Shown here piece after piece: positions 51,958 through 64,000 of a stretch of DNA of 64,000 bases. Under the pieces are notes generated by a model. The model did no database searches, was not told the origin of the DNA, and was given only the letters and a program-made list of their open reading frames with translations. The stretch's first letter is position 1. Each line of letters starts with the position of its first letter. A program made the translations under genes and the position numbers. This stretch comes from Planctomyces sp. (GTDB lineage: Bacteria; Planctomycetota; Planctomycetia; Planctomycetales; Planctomycetaceae), in the NCBI GenBank assembly GCA_016795105.1, contig JAEUIH010000040.1, positions 1-64,000 on the forward strand, in the 5' to 3' direction.

Positions 51958-53493
51958 ATGAAAGGCAAACTTCTGGGTATCTTTGGTCTGCTGATTGCAC
52001 TCTGTGTAGTGGGAACAATTGCATCTGCGGATCCATGGTATGATTTGAGCAGTTCTACGTTTCTCAAGACGGGAAACCTGATGAATCTGCTCAGCCGAAC
52101 CTCGATGTTCGGTATCCTTGGAATTGGCGTGGCTTTCGTAATTATCACGGGCGGCATCGATCTTTCGATTGGATCAACGGTCTGTCTGTCTGGTGTTTTG
52201 CTGTGGCGACTGCTGCTCGTGGAGTATGTCCCGGAGAGCCAGTATTCAGTGATGAGTGTTTCGAGCAGTTCTCGAACCTTTGAAATGGAGTCTGCTGGCG
52301 TACCGTTCAGGCCTGGAGATACTCTGCGATACAAAGGTGGAAAGTCGGATTCACGGATCTATCGAGTTGCAGGCGTTGCTGAAACTGAGGGACGCACGAT
52401 CGTGACGATGGAAGAAGGCGCGTCACGGGATGATTCCGGCGGACAGTTGATTCCTACGTTGAAGATCATGGAGCGTATTGCGGCTGAAGGTGGAGTAGGT
52501 CCCGAAACGGCTGGGTCTGGAACCGCTGGGGCCGGAGGAACTCGGTTGATTCTGGAAGGACAACAATCGATTCAGATTCGAGACCAGCTGAATATCCTTC
52601 GCGCTCCATCCGGAATGAATACTTCGACCGTAACCGACGTGCAGAGCGACGAAAATCGAACCATTGTCACTCTTCGCGATCAACTTCCATCAACTGTTGA
52701 TACCAACGCCGTCGCGGTTGTGCTCCACCGGAAACAGTTTATGTCTGTTCCAATGGCGCTGCTCACCACGTTCAGCATTGCCGGCCTGCTGGGACTGATT
52801 CACGGATTGCTGATTACTCGAGTTCGCCTGCAGCCATTTGTCGTGACACTGTGTGCACTTCTGATCTATCGAGGCTGGTCCAGGTGGCTGACGGGTGATG
52901 ATGCTGCGGGATTCTCCGAGTATTCAGACTCACTCGGCAAATTCGGACAAGGCACACTTCCTGTCATCCTGCGCGGTAAAGAAGTGGTCTTTGGCATTCC
53001 GTATCCGATGTTCTTTATGGTTGCCATCGCAATCGCCGCTTCGATCCTCCTTGGACGAACTTTGTGGGGACGATACCTGCTCGCGCTCGGGCGCAGCGAA
53101 ACGGCTGCCAGATTCAGCGGAATTAATACCGGACGTGTGACGCTGGCAGCTTATGTGATCTGTACCTGCCTTGCGGCCGTGGGAGGAATACTGTTCTCTC
53201 TGAACAACAACTCGATTTCCCCGTCCAGTTACGGAAACTTCTTTGAACTGTATGCAATTGCCGCAGCAGTGCTCGGCGGATGCAGTCTTCGAGGCGGAGA
53301 AGGTTCGATTGTCGGTGTGATCATCGGGACCGCGGTAATGCAGGTACTCAATAACCTGATCGTTCTGCTGAAGATCTCCGATAAGCTGGAGTTCACAATC
53401 ATCGGCTCCGTTCTGCTGATCGGGGTGACAGCCGATGAAATTCTGAAACGATATACAGCCTACCGTCGCCTGAAGCAAAACGCAGCGAAGTAG
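51958..53493 (+). CDS. Sugar ABC transporter permease (RbsC type) with unusual periplasmic insertion
   Basis: A 511-residue CUT2 permease, about 190 residues longer than typical RbsC. The family core is present: GGIDLSIGSTVCLSG near residue 65, then GRSETAARFSGINTGRVTLAAYVICTCLAAVGGILFSLNNNSISPSSYGNFFELYAIAAAVLGGCSLRGGEGSIVGVIIG. Residues about 91-262, between early helices, form an insert. It holds two similar beta-type units (about 115-158 and 204-247) joined by a Gly/Ala-rich linker. Both contain a basic/acidic start and a [EN]-RTIVT core. The start is six bases after the ATPase stop. Confidence 0.88.
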   Translation: MKGKLLGIFGLLIALCVVGTIASADPWYDLSSSTFLKTGNLMNLLSRTSMFGILGIGVAFVIITGGIDLSIGSTVCLSGVLLWRLLLVEYVPESQYSVMSVSSSSRTFEMESAGVPFRPGDTLRYKGGKSDSRIYRVAGVAETEGRTIVTMEEGASRDDSGGQLIPTLKIMERIAAEGGVGPETAGSGTAGAGGTRLILEGQQSIQIRDQLNILRAPSGMNTSTVTDVQSDENRTIVTLRDQLPSTVDTNAVAVVLHRKQFMSVPMALLTTFSIAGLLGLIHGLLITRVRLQPFVVTLCALLIYRGWSRWLTGDDAAGFSEYSDSLGKFGQGTLPVILRGKEVVFGIPYPMFFMVAIAIAASILLGRTLWGRYLLALGRSETAARFSGINTGRVTLAAYVICTCLAAVGGILFSLNNNSISPSSYGNFFELYAIAAAVLGGCSLRGGEGSIVGVIIGTAVMQVLNNLIVLLKISDKLEFTIIGSVLLIGVTADEILKRYTAYRRLKQNAAK

Positions 53494-53944: not shown

Positions 53945-56900
53945 ATGAGACGATGGCCTTTGATTATTCGGTTGATTGCTGCAACAGCAGTAATCACCAT
54001 CTCAAGTGTCGCCATGCCACTGTTTGGCATGCAGGCTTCCGATTCTGCAGCGCAACCTCCGTTTCGCGTTTATTCGCTGAAACGAGTCCCCGCGTCAGAA
54101 GCTCGGAAAATGCTGCTGGACCTGTCCGGCGACCTTCCACGAAATACACGATTTCTGGCCGATGATGAACGTCATGAATTGATTGTCACAGGTCCCGAAT
54201 CTGTTCAGAAGCTCGCCAGTGAACTTGTGGATCAGCTGAATGCAGAGCCAACTGCACAGGCACATTCAAAACAGAATGTGGTCATACGATTCTATGCCTG
54301 CCCGACAGATCAACTGCTACTTTGTCAGCGTACACTGAGCGCGTCGCTGAGCGAAGGATCTCGTGTCACAATTGACCGCAACAGCGGTCGGCTGGTGATC
54401 GCTGCCACTGAAGACGAACACATTATTGCAGCCAGAATTCTGAGTGAATCTGTTTCTCGAAACGACCAGCGGACATCGCAGGTCACGAATGAATCAATAC
54501 CGTCGTTGTCATTCGACAAATCGACCGGCAATACACAGGGGTCCAACAGAGAGGGCTCTGCTCGAATAGTCTCCGGGCATTCCGGACTTGCTGGTCAAAC
54601 CAGTCGCGAAGACAATTCTGAACATGCTCTGAGATTTCGGTTTCAGAACATCACTCCTGCTCAGGCGTCGACCGCCGTTCGCCGTCTTCTTGGGAAGAAG
54701 GTGGTTGAGCTGAGCAATGGAAACTTAAGTTTCTCAGCGGGTTCGGCTCGTTCTGTCACGATGACATTCGACCAGATGTCTCGATCCTGTCTTTTGGAAG
54801 GATCCCGAGATCTTGTCGTCCAGTTTGAGACACTGCTGCGGCAATTTGACGATGCTCGATCTGCCGATGTTTCGGATCAAATCCGCTTCGTATCAATGCG
54901 AAAGGTGGATCCGCTGGTTCTCAATCGAGCGATCCAGCTCTGGAAACAGTCGCAGTCAACGTTAGAAGAACGGCCATCTGCAGAGCCAATTCCTGTCAGA
55001 CCTGGTATCGGTGCAGAGCCTGCCATACCTGACACTGGTGCAGAGCAGGGCAGTCTGATTATGCAGCCGGCAATTCGGCCTGCAAGCTATCAGGAACAGG
55101 CTCGCTTCGGAGCGGATGAACAGGAAGCAACTCCCGGGAGTCCTCCCGACCTCAGACGTCCGTCATCGGACGTCACGATTGAGCCACTTCCTGACCTTGA
55201 TGTGTTGATCCTGCGAGGTCGTGATCCTGATGTTGAGGAGATTACTCGCATCATTCAGGAAATCGAGCGACTGAGTGCCGAGACTGCTCCCGAAATTGAA
55301 GTCGTCTACCTGCAGAATGTTCAGGGAGAAGCGCTTGATCAACTGATCGAAGACGTACTGGAAGATCTGACGGATCCGCTCCAGGGACGTGTTTCAATAA
55401 CACCACTTGTTAAACCCAATGCTCTCCTGCTGATTGGGTGGGGCGAGGCTGTCGCGGCTGCGAAGAAGCTGATCGCACGTCTGGATGAAGCCGTTGCACC
55501 TCAAACACAGATGCAGATTTTTTCACTCAAGCACGCCGCCGCTGCACAAGTTGAGTCTACGGTGACGGAGTTTCTGAATAATCGCGGAGGACTGGCGCCG
55601 GAAGTCCGCATTACGGCAGACCCTCGTACAAACAGTGTGATGGTGAATGCAGCTCCGCGAGACATGCAGGAAGTCGTTCGCATGATTCAGAAGCTCGATG
55701 CTCCGTCATCTGCCTCCGTGAATCAGGCCAGAATCTATCAACTCAAAAATGCGTTGGCGGCTGATGTGGCTCAGACAATCACATCTGCCATCCTTGCTGC
55801 TCGCGGAGGAACCGGCGGGCAGCGAACTGCGGCACTCGAAATGCTCATGGTGGGTCCGGACGGTCATAGCGTAATGGCCTCCGGCCTGCTGGACGAAGTG
55901 AAGCTCACTCCGGATGCTCGCACCAATCGAATCTTTATCACAGGTCCTCCGGACAGTGTGCCACTTGTTGAAGAACTGATTCGCAGTCTCGACGAATCGC
56001 CTGCGGCTTCTGCCCAGATCAAGGTGTTTCAGATCACAAACGGAGATGCTACGGACCTTGTGCAAATCCTGAGATCTCTGTTCCCGGAGCAGGCCGCGGT
56101 TTCAAACGTCCCACAACTGGCGACCGCAGAGGGTGAAAATGCGCTTGTTCCGGTTCGGTTTTCTGTTGACATTCGCACAAACAGTATCATCGCGACTGGT
56201 GCGGCGGGTGACTTGAGAATTATAGAAGTTCTGCTGCTGCGTCTTGATGAAGCGGATTCTCAGGAACGCGTCAACAAGGTCTATCGTCTGAAGAACTCAC
56301 CAGCACTCGACGTTGCAAATGCAGTCAGTAACTTTCTCCGCAGTGAGCGGATTGTCAATCAGGCGGCTCCTGGTCGCCAGAATCCGTTCACGCAGATTGA
56401 ATCCGAAGTTGTTGTGGTTCCTGAGCCGGTTGGAAACGCACTGATCATTAGTGCGACGCCACGATACTTCGAACAGATCATGGAACTCATTGAAGGCCTC
56501 GATGCTCAGCCGCCTCAGGTGATGATTCAAGTCATTCTGGCAGAAGTCGAACTGGAAAACCTTCATGAATTTGGAGTTGAACTTGGACTTCAGGACTCTC
56601 TGTTGTTTGATCGAAGTCTTCTGGGGAGCCTTTTGACGCCAGGATATGACTTCAATGGCAAGCCCCTGGGTAACGCCAATACTCCTGCTTCACTCGACAC
56701 TCGAGGCAAGGTCGGCGGCCAGGCGACTTCTCACTTCAGCCTGGGCCGCACGAACAATGACACTGGATTTGGTGGACTTGTGCTTTCGGCCAGCAGCGAA
56801 AATGTCAGTGTGCTTTTGCGAGCGATGAATCAGTCACGCAACATGGAGATTCTCAGCCGTCCGCAAATTATGACACTCGACAACCAGCCAGCCTTCATTC

Positions 56901-57685
56901 AGGTTGGGCAGCGAGTCCCGCGAATTGTGGGAACGAGCATCAATCAGGTCGGGCAGGTCAATACGGTAGAACTCGAAAACGTGGGACTGATTCTCGGAGT
57001 GACTCCACGAATCAGCCCCGAAGGCATGGTTGTCATGGAAATCGACGCAGAAAAGTCAGAGGTTGGTCCTGAAATTGAAGGCATTCCCGTGTCTGTTTCT
57101 GCAGACGGTGAAGTGATTCGATCTCCACGCGTGGACATTACAACCGCACAGACAACCGTCAGTGCAGCCAGCGGGCAGACGATTGTGATTGGCGGCCTGA
57201 TTACATCCAACAACTCTTCGATTTCGCGACGCGTTCCATGGCTGAGCGATGTTCCTCTCGTGGGAAATCTGTTCCGATTTGATGGCTCAGCGAATTCAAG
57301 AAAAGAACTGCTGATCATTCTGACGCCACACGTTGTGAGAGGTCAGGAAGAAGGGGAATACATCAAGCAGGTGGAAATGGCCCGAATGTCATGGATCTCG
57401 TGCGATATCTTTGACTGGATGAACACAACACCGGGAATCTCCGGACAACTGGACAGCGCCGGAATCCAGACGATCTACCCGGATCAGACACCGGGTATCG
57501 GTTCTCTGACAGTCCCGGCAGAACCAATCCTGAACCCGGCAATAGACGACCAGATTCCGGAGCTTCAGTCGGTTGATGAAAACGGCGGAGGAGAAATCCA
57601 GCAGATGAGGTTCCGCACGAAAGCATCACCAAAGACACGTCTTTCTCAACCATCGAAGCGTTCCACAGAGAGGTCCTTGCCATGA
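53945..57685 (+). CDS. Secretin (GspD/PilQ-like) with expanded N-terminal repeat region
   Basis: A 1246-residue outer-membrane secretin. A signal peptide (about 1-29) is followed by roughly nine secretin-N-like units, each a strand-helix-strand motif ending in a [R/N]-x-x-V/I-x-x-x-x hydrophobic strand, e.g. FRVYSLKRVPASEARKML, MQIFSLKHAAAAQVESTV, ARIYQLKNALAADVAQTI, IKVFQITNGDATDLVQIL and NKVYRLKNSPALDVANAV. The secretin core (about 855-1130) has MIQVILAEVELENLHEFGVEL and VPWLSDVPLVGNLFRF. Typical GspD has about 650 residues and three to four N domains, so this would be a very tall periplasmic cylinder. The stop overlaps the lipoprotein gene. Confidence 0.92.
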   Translation: MRRWPLIIRLIAATAVITISSVAMPLFGMQASDSAAQPPFRVYSLKRVPASEARKMLLDLSGDLPRNTRFLADDERHELIVTGPESVQKLASELVDQLNAEPTAQAHSKQNVVIRFYACPTDQLLLCQRTLSASLSEGSRVTIDRNSGRLVIAATEDEHIIAARILSESVSRNDQRTSQVTNESIPSLSFDKSTGNTQGSNREGSARIVSGHSGLAGQTSREDNSEHALRFRFQNITPAQASTAVRRLLGKKVVELSNGNLSFSAGSARSVTMTFDQMSRSCLLEGSRDLVVQFETLLRQFDDARSADVSDQIRFVSMRKVDPLVLNRAIQLWKQSQSTLEERPSAEPIPVRPGIGAEPAIPDTGAEQGSLIMQPAIRPASYQEQARFGADEQEATPGSPPDLRRPSSDVTIEPLPDLDVLILRGRDPDVEEITRIIQEIERLSAETAPEIEVVYLQNVQGEALDQLIEDVLEDLTDPLQGRVSITPLVKPNALLLIGWGEAVAAAKKLIARLDEAVAPQTQMQIFSLKHAAAAQVESTVTEFLNNRGGLAPEVRITADPRTNSVMVNAAPRDMQEVVRMIQKLDAPSSASVNQARIYQLKNALAADVAQTITSAILAARGGTGGQRTAALEMLMVGPDGHSVMASGLLDEVKLTPDARTNRIFITGPPDSVPLVEELIRSLDESPAASAQIKVFQITNGDATDLVQILRSLFPEQAAVSNVPQLATAEGENALVPVRFSVDIRTNSIIATGAAGDLRIIEVLLLRLDEADSQERVNKVYRLKNSPALDVANAVSNFLRSERIVNQAAPGRQNPFTQIESEVVVVPEPVGNALIISATPRYFEQIMELIEGLDAQPPQVMIQVILAEVELENLHEFGVELGLQDSLLFDRSLLGSLLTPGYDFNGKPLGNANTPASLDTRGKVGGQATSHFSLGRTNNDTGFGGLVLSASSENVSVLLRAMNQSRNMEILSRPQIMTLDNQPAFIQVGQRVPRIVGTSINQVGQVNTVELENVGLILGVTPRISPEGMVVMEIDAEKSEVGPEIEGIPVSVSADGEVIRSPRVDITTAQTTVSAASGQTIVIGGLITSNNSSISRRVPWLSDVPLVGNLFRFDGSANSRKELLIILTPHVVRGQEEGEYIKQVEMARMSWISCDIFDWMNTTPGISGQLDSAGIQTIYPDQTPGIGSLTVPAEPILNPAIDDQIPELQSVDENGGGEIQQMRFRTKASPKTRLSQPSKRSTERSLP

Positions 57686-58791
57686 CGAGGATTTCCATGA
57701 AACACAGAATCGAACGACAGTGCATCACTCTCGCCATCGTTTTGGCCATCGCAGCATTTCACTGCGGTTGCTCAATGATGAACAACAACATCAATATGAG
57801 TTCATTCTCTTTCCCGGGACGGAAGAAGGAGCCTGAATTTCTGACGCCTCGCCAGATGGTGCCTGTGTGGTCCGATGCTGTTCTTCATCAGTCCGGAGAA
57901 CCAGCAACACGTGGATTCGGTGGTCGGCTGATGTTCTATGGTCTCGACAAACATAAGCCGATTCAGGTCGACGGTGCCCTGGTGGTTTATGCGTGGGACG
58001 ACGACAAAGGCAACCTCGAACGAGCACCCGATCGAAAATATGTGTTTCCGAAAGAAGATTTTCAAAAGCATTACAGCGCATCGCGGCTCGGACATTCGTA
58101 CAGCTTCTGGCTTCCATGGGACGAAGCGGGCGGAGCTATGGGCAAGATGACTCTCATCTGCCGGTTTGTGAGCGGCGATGGCACGGAGCTTACTTCGAAC
58201 CCCGCTCATGTGGTTCTGCCCGGTCCAGGAGAGTCGTCTCCGTTCTATGAAGAAGTCGCAGGACGTGAACGAAACACTCAGCGACGATCGGCATCCACGA
58301 TCCAGCAAACCCGATTCGAACAAGGGGTCGATACTGACGGTGCCGACGAAAACGAATCCGGAGCTGCAACAGCGGTCTCATCCCGCGCTCGTAAGTACCA
58401 CCCCGGCCTGATGACTTCCGAAATTGGAGTCACTCAGGGCTTCCTGCAGAGAAACATGCAGAGTCCCGCGAACCAGTCGTCGTCAAAATCTGTGAACTCG
58501 ACGGCAATCCTGAATGCCGATGAATTGTTCGATCCCGATGCAGATTCACAATCAACTGGCGGACATAGTCAGCCACAGGAAGACTCGCAGAATTTCAGGG
58601 CGACCACTGAGATCGACGAGGAGTTGTTAAAGGACGAGGTGCAAGCGCCGGATCCACCGTCAACTCATTTACGACCTTTTGAATCCCGGGTTCGAACTTC
58701 AAGAGCAACTCGAACGTTTCGCGATCCCGTTCGGAAGGAACCACTCCGCGGAGAATGGCTGAATGGTCTTCCGGAGACACCTCGATCCTGA
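57682..58791 (+). CDS. Lipoprotein coupled to the secretin gene
   Basis: A 369-residue protein with a signal peptide and lipobox HCGCS (about 27-31). The ATG overlaps the secretin stop (ATGA). An N-terminal beta-rich domain (about 60-190: RGFGGRLMFYGLDKHKPIQVDGALVVYAWDDD, YSFWLPWDEAGGAMGKMTLICRFVSGDG) precedes a Ser/Gln/Asp-rich tail. Coupling suggests it is a pilotin-like or accessory protein of the secretin; no known pilotin is recognised. Its 3' end overlaps the antisense BON-domain gene by 197 bases. Confidence 0.75.
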   Translation: MTRISMKHRIERQCITLAIVLAIAAFHCGCSMMNNNINMSSFSFPGRKKEPEFLTPRQMVPVWSDAVLHQSGEPATRGFGGRLMFYGLDKHKPIQVDGALVVYAWDDDKGNLERAPDRKYVFPKEDFQKHYSASRLGHSYSFWLPWDEAGGAMGKMTLICRFVSGDGTELTSNPAHVVLPGPGESSPFYEEVAGRERNTQRRSASTIQQTRFEQGVDTDGADENESGAATAVSSRARKYHPGLMTSEIGVTQGFLQRNMQSPANQSSSKSVNSTAILNADELFDPDADSQSTGGHSQPQEDSQNFRATTEIDEELLKDEVQAPDPPSTHLRPFESRVRTSRATRTFRDPVRKEPLRGEWLNGLPETPRS

Positions 58792-59263
58792 GGGAATAAA
58801 CATCCATCAGACTCCTGAGCCCGTCCGAAACAGGAAGGGCCACGAGGTCCCCGGTTACTAAATTTGCTGTGTTCGGGGAATTCAGTTCCGATGAAAGACT
58901 AAGTCTCTCTGCGTACAACCCCGAAGGTCGGACAATTCTGGGTCTGTTGACCGGGGCCCGTACTTCTTCTGTCAAACCCACAACAGATGACGTGGCTGCG
59001 TTCGTCGCAGAAAATCCTCCGACAAACCCCGCAGCACCTCCGCCCGATGCACTGCTGCCAACAAAGTCAGTTACACTCCGCTCATCTCGCAAAAAACGAC
59101 GCCCACTTTCGGGAACTGCCCCTGCCGTCTGCCCGGTTCGAGCCGATGAGCGTCGGCTCAATGACCGCCCCAGAGTTCTCTCACCGAACAAACTCTGAGC
59201 CTCTGCAGATGTGATGCAGGCTGACGTCACAAATATCAAAATCATCAGGCGGCGGATGAACAT
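58595..59263 (-). CDS. Secreted BON-domain-like protein
   Basis: A 222-residue protein from the ATG at 59263, preceded by GGGGAG. Signal peptide (FIRRLMILIFVTSACITSAEAQ region), a Gly/Ser/Ala/Arg-rich middle (about 25-110), then a BON-like domain near the C-terminus (SLRIEVSPEDHSAILRGVVPSERDRETFELLLKFEPGIQKVVNELTV). BON domains bind membranes or anionic ligands. Its C-terminus lies over the end of the lipoprotein gene on the other strand. Confidence 0.7.
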   Translation of the reverse strand: MFIRRLMILIFVTSACITSAEAQSLFGERTLGRSLSRRSSARTGQTAGAVPESGRRFLRDERSVTDFVGSSASGGGAAGFVGGFSATNAATSSVVGLTEEVRAPVNRPRIVRPSGLYAERLSLSSELNSPNTANLVTGDLVALPVSDGLRSLMDVYSLRIEVSPEDHSAILRGVVPSERDRETFELLLKFEPGIQKVVNELTVDPALAPRPLTTPRRSQWSP

Positions 59264-59619
59264 CGCATTTCTCCCCAAAGAAACCCTCTCAGTCAGGTTT
59301 CGGCCGCATCTCTCACCTGAAACGAACGTTTTGCCATTTCGGCGGAAGAGTCGGATTTTAGTGAGCATACCAAATGTAACAGATTTTCCGACAAGGAAAA
59401 TCTGAGCGGAACTTCTCCGGGATTCAAAAGGACGGAACCACGATTGAGGTTCTGACGACCGGAAATCCTTGGTAATTCGGTCGCCAAAAAGCTACTCTGT
59501 TCACCTGAGCCTCCGGGCTTTCCAAATCCTCCCGAACTTCCCGCCTGTTGACATCATACCGACGTTGACTCTTTTCAGTCGTGACGATGGACCTTCATTA
59601 TTCCATCGGAGAGCTCTTC
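59264..59619. other. Gap between the BON-domain gene and the giant repeat gene
   Basis: A 356-base divergent region that must hold the promoters for both neighbours. No repeats, RNA gene or clear promoter motifs were recognised. Confidence 0.4.
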
Positions 59620-62600
59620 ATGAAGACCGATCAGCATCCGCTCCCACTGCTTCGAAGATCATCGGAACTTCCATTCCGAATTTGCATCATCGCCTTACTG
59701 ACAACATGGTCTGGACTATTCACTACAAATGATTGTTTGTATGCCGGACAGGAACCGGCTCAGGACGCGATTGCTGCCCCGGCACAACCGCCGATTGAAT
59801 CGCCGGCCGCAGACTATATGCGGCTGGCAGCCTCGGAAGTGGCAGCGTCTCTCGGTCTCACCGAAGAGCAGGCTGCTTCCGTTCAGCAGGTCCTGACTGA
59901 ACATCAAACAGCTCTTACGACGGCAGATGATACAACACGGCCGTCGATCGTTGCTTCAACAAATGACAAACTGAAGTCTCTTCTGACACAGGATCAGCAG
60001 AGATTGTTTGTATCGCTGTTTACAGACAAGAAGCTTCGATTCAATTTCCGATCGCAGAAGTGGGCCGACGTTCTTGACTGGATGGCGAAAGAAGCAGACC
60101 TTTCATTGGTGATGGAAACTCCGCCTCCTGGGACTTTCAACTACTCAGACCGAAAAGATTACTCTACCACAGAAGCAATTGATCTGCTGAATGGCTGGCT
60201 GCTGACAAAGGGTTTTACCCTTGTGCGGCGTGAACGAATGCTGATGTGTCTTGATCTGAAATCCGGATTGCCCGAAGGTGCCATTCCATCAATTCAGCCA
60301 ACCGAACTCGTGACTCGAGGTCGGTACGAGTTTGTCAGCGTGCTGTTCCCGCTTGAGAGTCGACCTGCGGAGGCTGTACTGATGGAGATCAAGCCTCTGC
60401 TTGGTACGTATGGAAAAGCGGAGGCACTCCCTCAGACACAGCAGATTCTTGTCATCGACACAGCCACAAACCTGAAAGTGATCGAACAAATCGTCAGGAG
60501 AATTCCGGTACCAGCTCCCGGACCAGCCGTCACATCTCCTCCGGCAGCAGTGTTGACGGTGTACCCGATCATTCATGCGAATCCCACGCAGGCTGGTGAA
60601 GTTCTGAAACAAATTCTGGCTGGAAGTACCGTCGTTGTCGACGCAAAGGCCAGCCAGATCTCTGTCAACGCGATTCCGTCAGAACAAGTCAAAGCAAAGT
60701 CGATTATCGACCAACTGGAACAGAATCAGGGACCGGATGTTCAACCTGTTGTTAAGCTTTACCCTGCGTTGGTGACGGACGCTGATCAGCTGCTCGCAAC
60801 GCTGAAACTGATTGCCCCGGGTGGGCAGTTTCGAATCGATCCAGTGTCCGGCAACGTCGTTGCATGGGCTCCTCCGGCCGATCAGATTCATATTGAAGAG
60901 ACGATTAAGACAATTATGGCCAGTCAGCCTGCCGGGAACGTCCGACAGATGCAGGTCTACGCACTGAAGAACCTTGAGCCGACTGCTGTCTACACAATGA
61001 TTGCCACGGTCGTCCCTTCGGCCAGAGTTACGATCAACACAACGACCAAAAGTCTGATCGTCATGGGTTCACAAAGCGACCAGGAGGCGGTCGCTCGCCT
61101 CATTGCGCAACTTGAGGAACAAACTGATGTTGGCACTGCACAGAAGGACTTGAAGGCGTATCCGGTGAGTCCGTTGACGCTGACAACCGCCGTCACGCTG
61201 ATGGCGACGGCAATACCTCAGGCACAAGTCGTTGCGGATGCCCCAGGACAGCGAATTCTGGTTCTGGCGAATTCTGCGGATCAGGCAAGAGCAGAGATTC
61301 TGCTGAACTCACTGGCGACAGCTGAAGTCAGCGGACGTACTTTAAAGATGTACGAAGCAGACCGTATAGACACGACCAGTGTAGTTGCGCTGTTGACGAC
61401 TGTTGTTCCACAGGCTTCTGTCACGGTTGATGCTGTAAACCGCAGACTGCTGATCGTTGCCGCCGAACAGGATCATAAGTCTGTCACTGATGTACTCGAG
61501 CAGGTCAAGCTCAGTGAAGATGATGCTCAAAGAACCGTAAAGTCTCATCCGCTTCAGCCTCGTGTCAGTTCAACGACCATTGTTACCCTGGCTGCCTCAC
61601 TGGCTCCGCGAGCAAGCGTGGCGGTTGATGAGGCGAATCGCCGTCTTCTGGTGACTGGAACAGATCGCGATCATGCATTGATTGATCAGATCATTGAGCA
61701 GGTTCAGAATGACTCTGCAGGTATCTTACCCGAACTCCGGTTCTATCCTCTGCAGAAAGCGACATCGACAACGGCAGTCGCGTTGCTGCAGACGATTGTC
61801 CCTACTGCTCGAGTCACAGTTCAACCGGAAGCGAATCGCCTGAACATTGTGGCGACACCGGATGAGCATCAGAAAGTCACTGAGACCCTTCAGCTTCTTG
61901 AGACCGGTACAGAACAGACTCAGAAGTCCCTGGAGTTCTTTAGTGTTGGCAGCATTGGAGCCGCTGACACACGAACTCTTCTCGCAACCACGTTTACTGA
62001 TGTTACGTTTGTAGCAACGGCCGATGGTTCAAAGCTGATGGCCTGGGTTACTGCCAGTCAGAGCGCTCGGATTCAGGAGTTGCTGGAGAAGCTCACTGTG
62101 GAGCGTCCTTTTGACTCAGCCACGTCTTTGAAGTTCTATTCGATTCGCGACCTGGGTGCTTCGGCCACCACCGTGCTCACACGCGCTGTCCCCAAAGCCA
62201 CGATTACTCCGGGAGCAACAGCCGATCAGGTCGCAGTTGTCGCATCAGAAGAAGACCATGCTAAATTTGCAGAAGTACTCGCTCAGCTGGAATCTCAAAA
62301 GGAAGTCACATCGGATCGAACCCTCGAAGTATTCTCGATCCGCGGAACAACGCCTGCTGCTGTTCTTCAGGTGCTGCAGCCGCTTGTCGACACCTCGGTT
62401 CAGCTCACCATTGACACTGTCGGTCAGCAGCTGTTTGTCAGAGCAACAGCTGAAAAACACGAACAAATTCGGCCTGTCGTCCAGCAGGTTTTGGCGTCGC
62501 TTGAGGAAAAGAACCGTCGATCCACGAAAACTTATGTCGTAGGTGCACCAAACGCTGACGAAGCACAGGAAGTGTTGCTGGCTCTGTTTCCGGATGCAAA

Positions 62601-64000
62601 GATTGTCACCGATGCAGACCGCAAAATTGTGATTGCAACTGCGACGGATGAACAGCATGTCACAATCGACCAGATTACATCGCAGATGAAGGGCGCTGAA
62701 CTTGATGGTGACCTTCCTGTTTCGGCCATCTACACGCTTCGCAATGCCAGTGCAACGGAGCTCCAGACACTGCTCACATCGATGTATTCACGATTCGACA
62801 ATGTCCGATTGACCGTGAACGAGAAGACAGGTCGACTAATTGTCCTTGCACGTCCTGAGCAACAAACCTCCATTCGGGAATTGATCGAGAAATTTGACAG
62901 CGATCCGGTTGATAAGGCAAAAAAGGAACTGGCCGTCTTTCGGCTGAATCAGATTGATGGCCTGTCGCTGCAACAGGCTCTTCAGCCATTGCTGCCCCCC
63001 AACGCGCAAGTGACCGCTGACAGAATTGGACGACAGCTGTTCGTCAGTGCTGAAACAGAGGATATGCCAGCGATTCGCGAACTCGTGCAGACAATGATGT
63101 CATCGTCTGCCACCAGCGAAGGACTGATTACGCGGATTTATAAGGTCCGTCCTTTTGAAGCCGATGAAGCTCAGGAGGTTCTGATGAGACTGTTTCCGGA
63201 CGCTACGCTGGTAACAGATGTCAGCCAGGAGATCCTGACCGCGACCGCAACAGAGACTCAGCACGCAACGATTAAAGATGTTGTCGAACAGATGGTCAGT
63301 CAGACGTCAGATGAGAATAGTCCACAACCTCGGGTTTACCCCCTGCGTTTTGCAGATGGCGAGAATCTGGTACTAACGCTCGGGACTCTGTTCAATCGAT
63401 CGGACAACGTCAGAGCGTCGTTTGATTCAAATACCGGCTCTCTGCTGGTTGTGGCCCGTCCTACACAACATGCAATTGTTCAGAAACTGATTGAAGACAT
63501 CGAACCGACATCGACGCAGAATTCTGCAAGGACCTTGGAGATTTACTCGCTTCAGGCGACGGAAGGCAAAACTGCCACACAGGTTGCAGAAGGGATGCTG
63601 AAAGGAATCGATCCTGCGGCAACTGTATCCTGGGATCCGAACTCACGTCAGTTGATCGTCACTACAACTCCTGCCGGGCATGCTGAAGTGAAGCGGGGCG
63701 TCGAACGATTTCAGGAAGCGGATCCTCGAGAAATGGATGTGCTCCAGTTGCGTACACTCAGCCCTTCGTCGGCTCAAAATGCGATTGAAGGTCTTTACGG
63801 AGACAGCTTCTCTGATGAAGGAAGCTACCCAATCATTCAGGCCGATGAAGATTCTCAACAATTGCTTCTTCGTGGTACAAAGAAACAGCTTCAGGAGATT
63901 CGAACACTCCTTCGAAAGATGGGTGAAACTCAGATTGCTGAGCTGGGGGGCGTCGATGAACCCGTTCGACGAAACCTGCGAGTCATTCAAATTGAAGGCG
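59620..64000 (+). CDS. Giant secretin-N repeat protein (partial at window edge)
   Basis: An open frame of at least 1460 codons from the ATG at 59620, still open at the window end. The N-terminus looks like a signal region (about 18-34 hydrophobic), then an LTEEQ-type helical stretch (about 71-125), then an STN-like domain (about 130-215). From about residue 235, at least 18 units of 60-75 residues follow. Each starts with a hydrophobic strand such as YPL or YSL, has a helix ending in VxPxA, and a strand RRLLVxAT followed by DHxxI. The pattern matches secretin-N domains; no secretin core is visible in what is seen. It lies 1.9 kb downstream of the secretin gene. Confidence 0.85.
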   Translation, partial: MKTDQHPLPLLRRSSELPFRICIIALLTTWSGLFTTNDCLYAGQEPAQDAIAAPAQPPIESPAADYMRLAASEVAASLGLTEEQAASVQQVLTEHQTALTTADDTTRPSIVASTNDKLKSLLTQDQQRLFVSLFTDKKLRFNFRSQKWADVLDWMAKEADLSLVMETPPPGTFNYSDRKDYSTTEAIDLLNGWLLTKGFTLVRRERMLMCLDLKSGLPEGAIPSIQPTELVTRGRYEFVSVLFPLESRPAEAVLMEIKPLLGTYGKAEALPQTQQILVIDTATNLKVIEQIVRRIPVPAPGPAVTSPPAAVLTVYPIIHANPTQAGEVLKQILAGSTVVVDAKASQISVNAIPSEQVKAKSIIDQLEQNQGPDVQPVVKLYPALVTDADQLLATLKLIAPGGQFRIDPVSGNVVAWAPPADQIHIEETIKTIMASQPAGNVRQMQVYALKNLEPTAVYTMIATVVPSARVTINTTTKSLIVMGSQSDQEAVARLIAQLEEQTDVGTAQKDLKAYPVSPLTLTTAVTLMATAIPQAQVVADAPGQRILVLANSADQARAEILLNSLATAEVSGRTLKMYEADRIDTTSVVALLTTVVPQASVTVDAVNRRLLIVAAEQDHKSVTDVLEQVKLSEDDAQRTVKSHPLQPRVSSTTIVTLAASLAPRASVAVDEANRRLLVTGTDRDHALIDQIIEQVQNDSAGILPELRFYPLQKATSTTAVALLQTIVPTARVTVQPEANRLNIVATPDEHQKVTETLQLLETGTEQTQKSLEFFSVGSIGAADTRTLLATTFTDVTFVATADGSKLMAWVTASQSARIQELLEKLTVERPFDSATSLKFYSIRDLGASATTVLTRAVPKATITPGATADQVAVVASEEDHAKFAEVLAQLESQKEVTSDRTLEVFSIRGTTPAAVLQVLQPLVDTSVQLTIDTVGQQLFVRATAEKHEQIRPVVQQVLASLEEKNRRSTKTYVVGAPNADEAQEVLLALFPDAKIVTDADRKIVIATATDEQHVTIDQITSQMKGAELDGDLPVSAIYTLRNASATELQTLLTSMYSRFDNVRLTVNEKTGRLIVLARPEQQTSIRELIEKFDSDPVDKAKKELAVFRLNQIDGLSLQQALQPLLPPNAQVTADRIGRQLFVSAETEDMPAIRELVQTMMSSSATSEGLITRIYKVRPFEADEAQEVLMRLFPDATLVTDVSQEILTATATETQHATIKDVVEQMVSQTSDENSPQPRVYPLRFADGENLVLTLGTLFNRSDNVRASFDSNTGSLLVVARPTQHAIVQKLIEDIEPTSTQNSARTLEIYSLQATEGKTATQVAEGMLKGIDPAATVSWDPNSRQLIVTTTPAGHAEVKRGVERFQEADPREMDVLQLRTLSPSSAQNAIEGLYGDSFSDEGSYPIIQADEDSQQLLLRGTKKQLQEIRTLLRKMGETQIAELGGVDEPVRRNLRVIQIEG

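Follow-up and report, generated by a model that had tools for sequence, protein, structure and literature searches.

The 64,000-nucleotide stretch analysed here (the window) comprises positions 1 to 64,000 of contig JAEUIH010000040.1 of a Planctomyces sp. assembly (GCA_016795105.1), and its distal end is occupied by a giant gene for a long array of secretin N-domains that has no secretin core. The gene begins with an ATG at 59620 on the + strand, with an in-frame GTG upstream at 59581, and its frame runs open through the window edge at 64000, as a preliminary description made from the sequence alone had read it. The frame closes with a TAA at contig positions 64978-64980, beyond the window on a contig of 65,209 bp, and codes for a protein of 1786 amino acids (aa) from the ATG or 1799 aa from the GTG; P0001 denotes this protein with residues numbered from the GTG. 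The gene and its parts are as follows:

59620..64000, continuing to contig position 64980 (L002:3621-8981), + strand: giant coreless N-domain array gene, an open frame with PF03958 (Secretin_N) at E=1.1e-106 and PF00263 (secretin core) absent
59620..59751, + strand: signal-peptide-like N-terminus read from the sequence, with a basic start, the hydrophobic ICIIALLTTWSGLF and then ...LYAGQEPA
59803..60030, + strand: helical region before N0 with LTxEQ / LTxDQ motifs, from the orthologue alignment and AlphaFold helices at model residues 5-73
60037..60354 (P0001 residues 153-258), + strand: N0 domain, the most conserved part of the giant, matching GspD N0 (4jtm) and, by phmmer, GspD N-terminal domains
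60343..60519, + strand: first Secretin_N domain, N1-like (PF03958, E=1.7e-6)
60550..63921 (P0001 residues 324-1447), + strand: 17 regular Secretin_N-type units of ~66 aa each, with a profile spacing of 64-69 aa and a modelled beta-alpha-beta-beta-alpha fold
62314..63504, + strand: duplicated three-unit block, units 10-12 against units 13-15 (identities 39% for 10/13, 55% for 11/14 and 38% for 12/15)

The complete protein consists of a signal-like start, a helical region, a GspD-type N0 domain, 21 complete Secretin_N-type units and a terminal half-domain. A Pfam scan of the whole protein finds Secretin_N in 14 significant stretches and no match to PF00263, which is likewise absent from the coreless relatives that were scanned with Pfam. 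A profile iterated from the giant itself recovers 19 units, evenly spaced except around one interrupted domain. Counting the N1-like match together with the profile units, 18 complete units lie within the window, exactly the number that the preliminary description had set as a minimum. Beyond the window follow one N-domain into which a Pro/Ser-rich linker is inserted, a pair of long-looped N-domains and the terminal strand-helix half-domain; this distal part contains neither an ordinary enzyme nor a secretin core. Weak Pfam matches to Ribosomal_L17 and KH families fall below cut-off and were taken for noise or a resemblance at the level of the fold.

The AlphaFold model of the giant (mean pLDDT 80) displays N0 followed by repeated beta-alpha-beta-beta-alpha units, and its best matches in a fold search of the PDB are the type II secretion system (T2SS) secretins GspD, XcpQ and PulD. 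The modelled N0 (model residues 73-152) aligns with GspD N0 (4jtm) at Z 11.6 and a root-mean-square deviation of 2.5 A over 80/81 residues, and PulD matches at Z 13.7 over 213 residues. At the sequence level, N0 is 82-85% identical to its nearest orthologues. A model of the C-terminal module alone has low confidence (mean pLDDT 63) and is used for no claim. Pfam, the model and the fold search therefore agree that the units are true secretin N-domains, as the preliminary description had proposed, and the signal-like N-terminus and missing core that it reported also stand, the former as a reading of the basic start and hydrophobic stretch. It had not recorded the N-terminal N0 of the giant, the absence of N0 from the neighbouring secretin, or the type II secretion context.

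The ending of the protein in a half-domain near the end of the contig might indicate a broken secretin, a pseudogene or an assembly artefact that lacks its core. However, 14 giants belonging to several genera share this ending, half-domain included, and many genomes keep an intact frame of 1700-4168 aa. The chance of a broken secretin is negligible, and the pseudogene or artefact reading was rejected on the conservation of the C-terminus.

A secretin gene and two further genes precede the giant:

53945..57685, + strand: secretin P0002, with eight Secretin_N stretches and a PF00263 core (Pfam), the proposed partner half
57682..58791, + strand: putative lipoprotein P0003, next after the secretin, with a lipobox-like N-terminus read from the sequence
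58595..59368, - strand: BON-domain protein P0004 (PF04972, E=1.2e-6)

In a whole-genome profile search, no N0 was detected in the P0002 frame at E<=0.001, and the orthologues of P0002 are also without N0. Linkage of an N0-less secretin upstream of the giant is conserved, occurring as in the window at loci L104, L105, L106, L108 and L111. Two of these (L105 and L108) come from metagenome-assembled genome records titled Candidatus Kuenenia stuttgartiensis, in which the secretin and giant are very close to the Fuerstiella-like genes of the window; the titles appear to be taxonomically wrong.

Comparisons with related genomes place the giant in a T2SS operon. In the single-contig genome G214, the gene order is giant, GspE, F, G, H, I, J, K, L, M, N0-less secretin, lipoprotein and, on the opposite strand, BON protein. 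Three further genomes (G136, G043 and G018) also carry the giant at the operon head upstream of GspE; in G018 the giant is divided over two contigs and the operon ends in an N0-less secretin. Pfam confirms T2SSE, T2SSF and T2SSK on representative loci. The order P0002, P0003, P0004 in the window is that of the last three genes of the G214 operon, here followed by the giant. P0002 is orthologous to the terminal secretin of the G214 operon (54% identity), an orthologue of P0003 follows the secretin in both G214 (43% identity) and G018, and the P0004 orthologue in G214 lies after the lipoprotein gene on the opposite strand. The window's own genome holds a GspE-M block on another contig (C340) that is orthologous to the giant-associated platforms, its GspE being 83/75/69/66% identical to theirs versus 54% to the other T2SS type. 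P0002, P0003, P0004 and this block are all orthologous to parts of one giant-led operon. Since the giant carries an N0, the neighbouring secretin has none, and the context is type II secretion, a split secretin is indicated.

This operon also bears on two readings in which the giant has no part in the secretion machine. First, it could serve as a subunit in the rings or walls of crateriform surface structures, uninvolved in protein secretion as such. These structures carry fibres and make contact with the cytoplasmic membrane (PMC5394234), the fibres of Fuerstia marisgermanicae appear to arise from polar pits (PMC5177795), and T2SS-like machines build pilus-like filaments. The genes of the operon nevertheless make up a usual T2SS complement in which GspK, L and M are present, and we regard this reading as very unlikely. 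Second, the giant could be an extracellular adhesin or fibre, or a T2SS cargo, since work on planctomycete giant genes connects their products with adhesion and the cell surface (PMC5177795). The GspD-type N0 and secretin N-domains, the T2SS operon position in relatives and the fused secretin homologues described next make this more improbable still.

In other planctomycete families, homologues occur in which N0, 10-52 detected units and a core are fused in one open reading frame of 2175-5073 aa, some of them checked with Pfam. The best match to the giant's C-terminal module lies inside some of these fused proteins, ending 589-596 aa before the core in family f4 and 758-874 aa before it in f3. 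The separate N0-less secretins have 811-1016 aa ahead of the core (811-869 in 10/13), and 589 aa in an f4 example. The module-to-core distance in these fused proteins matches the stretch ahead of the core in the separate secretins, which places the break point where two genes replace one. A long N0-less secretin is present in 12/13 giant-bearing genomes versus 1/14 genomes of the same family without a giant (Fisher p ~1e-5, relatedness ignored; tallied by hand with fragmented genomes left out). In a tree of core domains, the N0-bearing secretins of the C321 type group apart from the N0-less ones (94/100), with weak deeper branches. The idea that core secretins always lack N0 where a coreless protein exists was rejected, as the C321-type secretins carry a short N0.

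Eight fused secretins from other families (L178, L180, L182, L184, L185, L186, L187 and L188) reach 3575-5073 aa, with 37-52 detected N-domains plus core, and are possibly the largest secretins on record. Several of them adjoin GspK/L/M-like genes.

Solved secretins have a handful of N-domain rings within a single chain. We consider it likely that the giant is instead the periplasmic half of a split giant T2SS secretin; it is probably part of a T2SS secretin yet not a secretin itself, because it fails the PF00263 core test. Like the N0 of GspD, that of the giant would be located at the platform in the inner membrane; in characterised T2SSs the HR domain of GspC is bound by GspD N0, and the N-domains stack as rings (PMC6882859). 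The 21 Secretin_N-type domains could then stack into a very long periplasmic vestibule, the C-terminal module would hand over to the N0-less P0002, and the eight N-domains and beta-barrel core of P0002 would complete the channel in the outer membrane. By analogy with characterised systems, 22 domain layers of the giant (N0 plus 21) would start at the inner membrane and run into the eight of P0002; if a layer measures roughly 2.5-4 nm, we estimate that the giant alone might be ~55-90 nm long. We infer periplasmic export of the giant, its stacking in rings at secretin copy number, docking of N0 on the inner-membrane complex, physical contact with P0002 and a role in secretion. Together, these features suggest an exceptionally long secretion conduit made from two polypeptides. 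The preliminary description had suggested a filament or sleeve, perhaps stacked with the nearby secretin, or a ring subunit of a planctomycete pore structure. Its guess of stacking is largely supported, and a link with the nearby secretin is backed by the conserved linkage, the T2SS operons and the fused homologues, whereas a free filament or sleeve finds no supporting evidence.

Several observations weigh against a split secretin of this kind. First, the giant belongs to a T2SS operon in G214, G136, G043 and G018, whereas the orthologous GspE-M block of the window's genome lies apart from it, on another contig. Second, Pfam recognises no GspC. For a GspC HR domain on the GspM-like proteins, neither Pfam nor PDB sequences yield a match, and the HR-like pattern at the GspM C-terminus is seen by eye only and is unproven. 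Third, a related T2SS type (e.g. G016) combines a seven-unit coreless protein bearing N0 with a secretin that has a short N0 of its own, both in one operon; coreless proteins therefore cannot be regarded merely as stand-ins for an absent N0. Fourth, a long N0-less secretin was not found in G136 (91% complete), although its T2SS operon includes the giant. Fifth, the split point could not be located in the very large fused secretins of families f8, f51, f60 and f63, where several matches score similarly. Sixth, the giant's model has a pTM of 0.32, which leaves the arrangement of the domains relative to one another undefined, and ring stacking is a proposal. Finally, the arrays of coreless giants range from 18 to 52 units, a spread hard to reconcile with an envelope of a single fixed width.

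Several planctomycete genera contain coreless giants, which measure 1740-4168 aa; the N-terminal N0 and the C-terminal module are conserved among them while the number of units varies. The arrays grow through block duplication: likeness between units recurs with lineage-specific periods of 3 (the genus of the window), 4, 6 or 9 units, with identities up to 97%, and the orthologue at L105 has exactly one unit fewer. The longest examples, L170:5232-17738 (4168 aa, 52 units) and L172:4964-16831 (3955 aa, 48 units), have 4- and 6-unit periods and internal units up to 97% identical, which points to recent duplication of blocks.

This readily shifting length, through duplicated blocks and the single-unit loss or gain, also fits the main rival to a stacked-ring tube, which remains an N-domain tether. 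The array would then be a T2SS-associated spacer, beads on a string from the platform (via N0) to the secretin (via the C-terminal module), that holds the membranes together in a wide and variable periplasm. Conservation is higher in the N0 region and C-terminal module than in much of the sequence between them, and Boedeker et al. reported that crateriform structures of the outer membrane are joined to the cytoplasmic membrane (PMC5394234). However, the linkers are short and the spacing nearly constant, each N-domain of the fused homologues rides on a protomer of a ring-forming core, and N-domains form rings in solved secretins (PMC5745081, PMC6882859). We therefore judge a tether to be unlikely, and favor the stacked periplasmic half of a split secretin.

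Parts of this arrangement are already known. Split GspD with separate Secretin_N proteins occurs in mitochondria, and additional N-rings occur in Thermus PilQ. The giant resembles GspD (PulD, XcpQ) in having N0 followed by N1-type domains, in its T2SS operon context and in its structural match, but GspD carries N0-N3 and the core in one chain, whereas the giant has 21 N-type domains and leaves the core to a separate N0-less protein. In T. thermophilus PilQ, additional N-domain rings lengthen the periplasmic part, with six stacked rings in a 350 A complex that spans most of a wide periplasm (PMC5745081); these rings and the core form one chain, unlike the 22 coreless domains of the giant and the up to ~52 of its relatives. 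The mitochondrial GspDN1-3 proteins likewise encode Secretin_N domains, including half-domains, apart from the core, and GspDN1 contacts GspD in two-hybrid assays (PMC8134430), but they are eukaryotic single N-domains without N0, whereas the giant is bacterial, expanded, and bears N0 on the coreless part. Lastly, the giant resembles the planctomycete giant genes of >5 kb, which are reported to be common in planctomycetes and whose function is largely unexplained; those genes were mostly linked to adhesion, carbohydrate binding or the outer membrane (PMC5177795), whereas the present one has a specific assignment to a T2SS. Full-text literature searches, with most subscription journals outside their scope, found nothing on planctomycete T2SSs or giant secretins, nor on the SpoIIIAG ring motif; coreless arrays, secretin partners lacking N0 and secretins with N-domains by the dozen are not described in the papers covered.

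Natural variation up to ~52 N-domains, with rings encoded apart from the barrel, would offer a direct test of whether N-domain rings serve as a length ruler, a gate or a membrane tether, and a test of how T2SS machines manage an unusually wide periplasm. It would also give one class of planctomycete giant genes a concrete function and provide a candidate molecular basis for crateriform structures. The planctomycete periplasm is variable and at times greatly enlarged (PMC5394234). It is conceivable, though we consider it doubtful, that Planctomycetota build conduits of record length, with ~30-60 stacked N-domain rings on one or two chains and block duplication matching their number to the wide and variable periplasm, and that these conduits are the crateriform structures, pinning both membranes. 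Crateriform structures sit where the membranes lie close, in contrast to the enlarged periplasm.

Related proteins and neighboring sequences show additional features. In many genomes, the window's own among them (contig C367), another T2SS operon starts with a shorter coreless paralogue that has N0 and ~7 units. The helical region before N0 has no match in a Pfam scan; its LTxEQ-type helices (P0001 residues 75-150) are seemingly repeated in shorter coreless paralogues (e.g. L063:7090-10689) and are reminiscent of Spy/LTxxQ periplasmic proteins, again with no Pfam match. A different kind of coreless Secretin_N protein is encoded at L066:8207-10447 (genome G000, contig C155); this protein of 746 aa has two Secretin_N domains, lacks PF00263 and differs in its C-terminal part. 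Proteins at the GspM position of other planctomycete T2SS operons with Ig-like (He_PIG) matches, unusual for a T2SS platform protein, are found at L138:5223-6620, L139:10387-12099 and L151:10386-11582. Directly 3' of the giant gene, a gtagcttgggcattcctgcccgagcc-like sequence is repeated up to the contig end (L002:8985-9210, contig positions 64984-65209) and is probably an interspersed repeat that broke the assembly. Upstream of the secretin, the + strand at 51958-53493 codes for a ribose-type ABC permease of 511 aa with an apparent extra segment of ~150 aa within its membrane domain.

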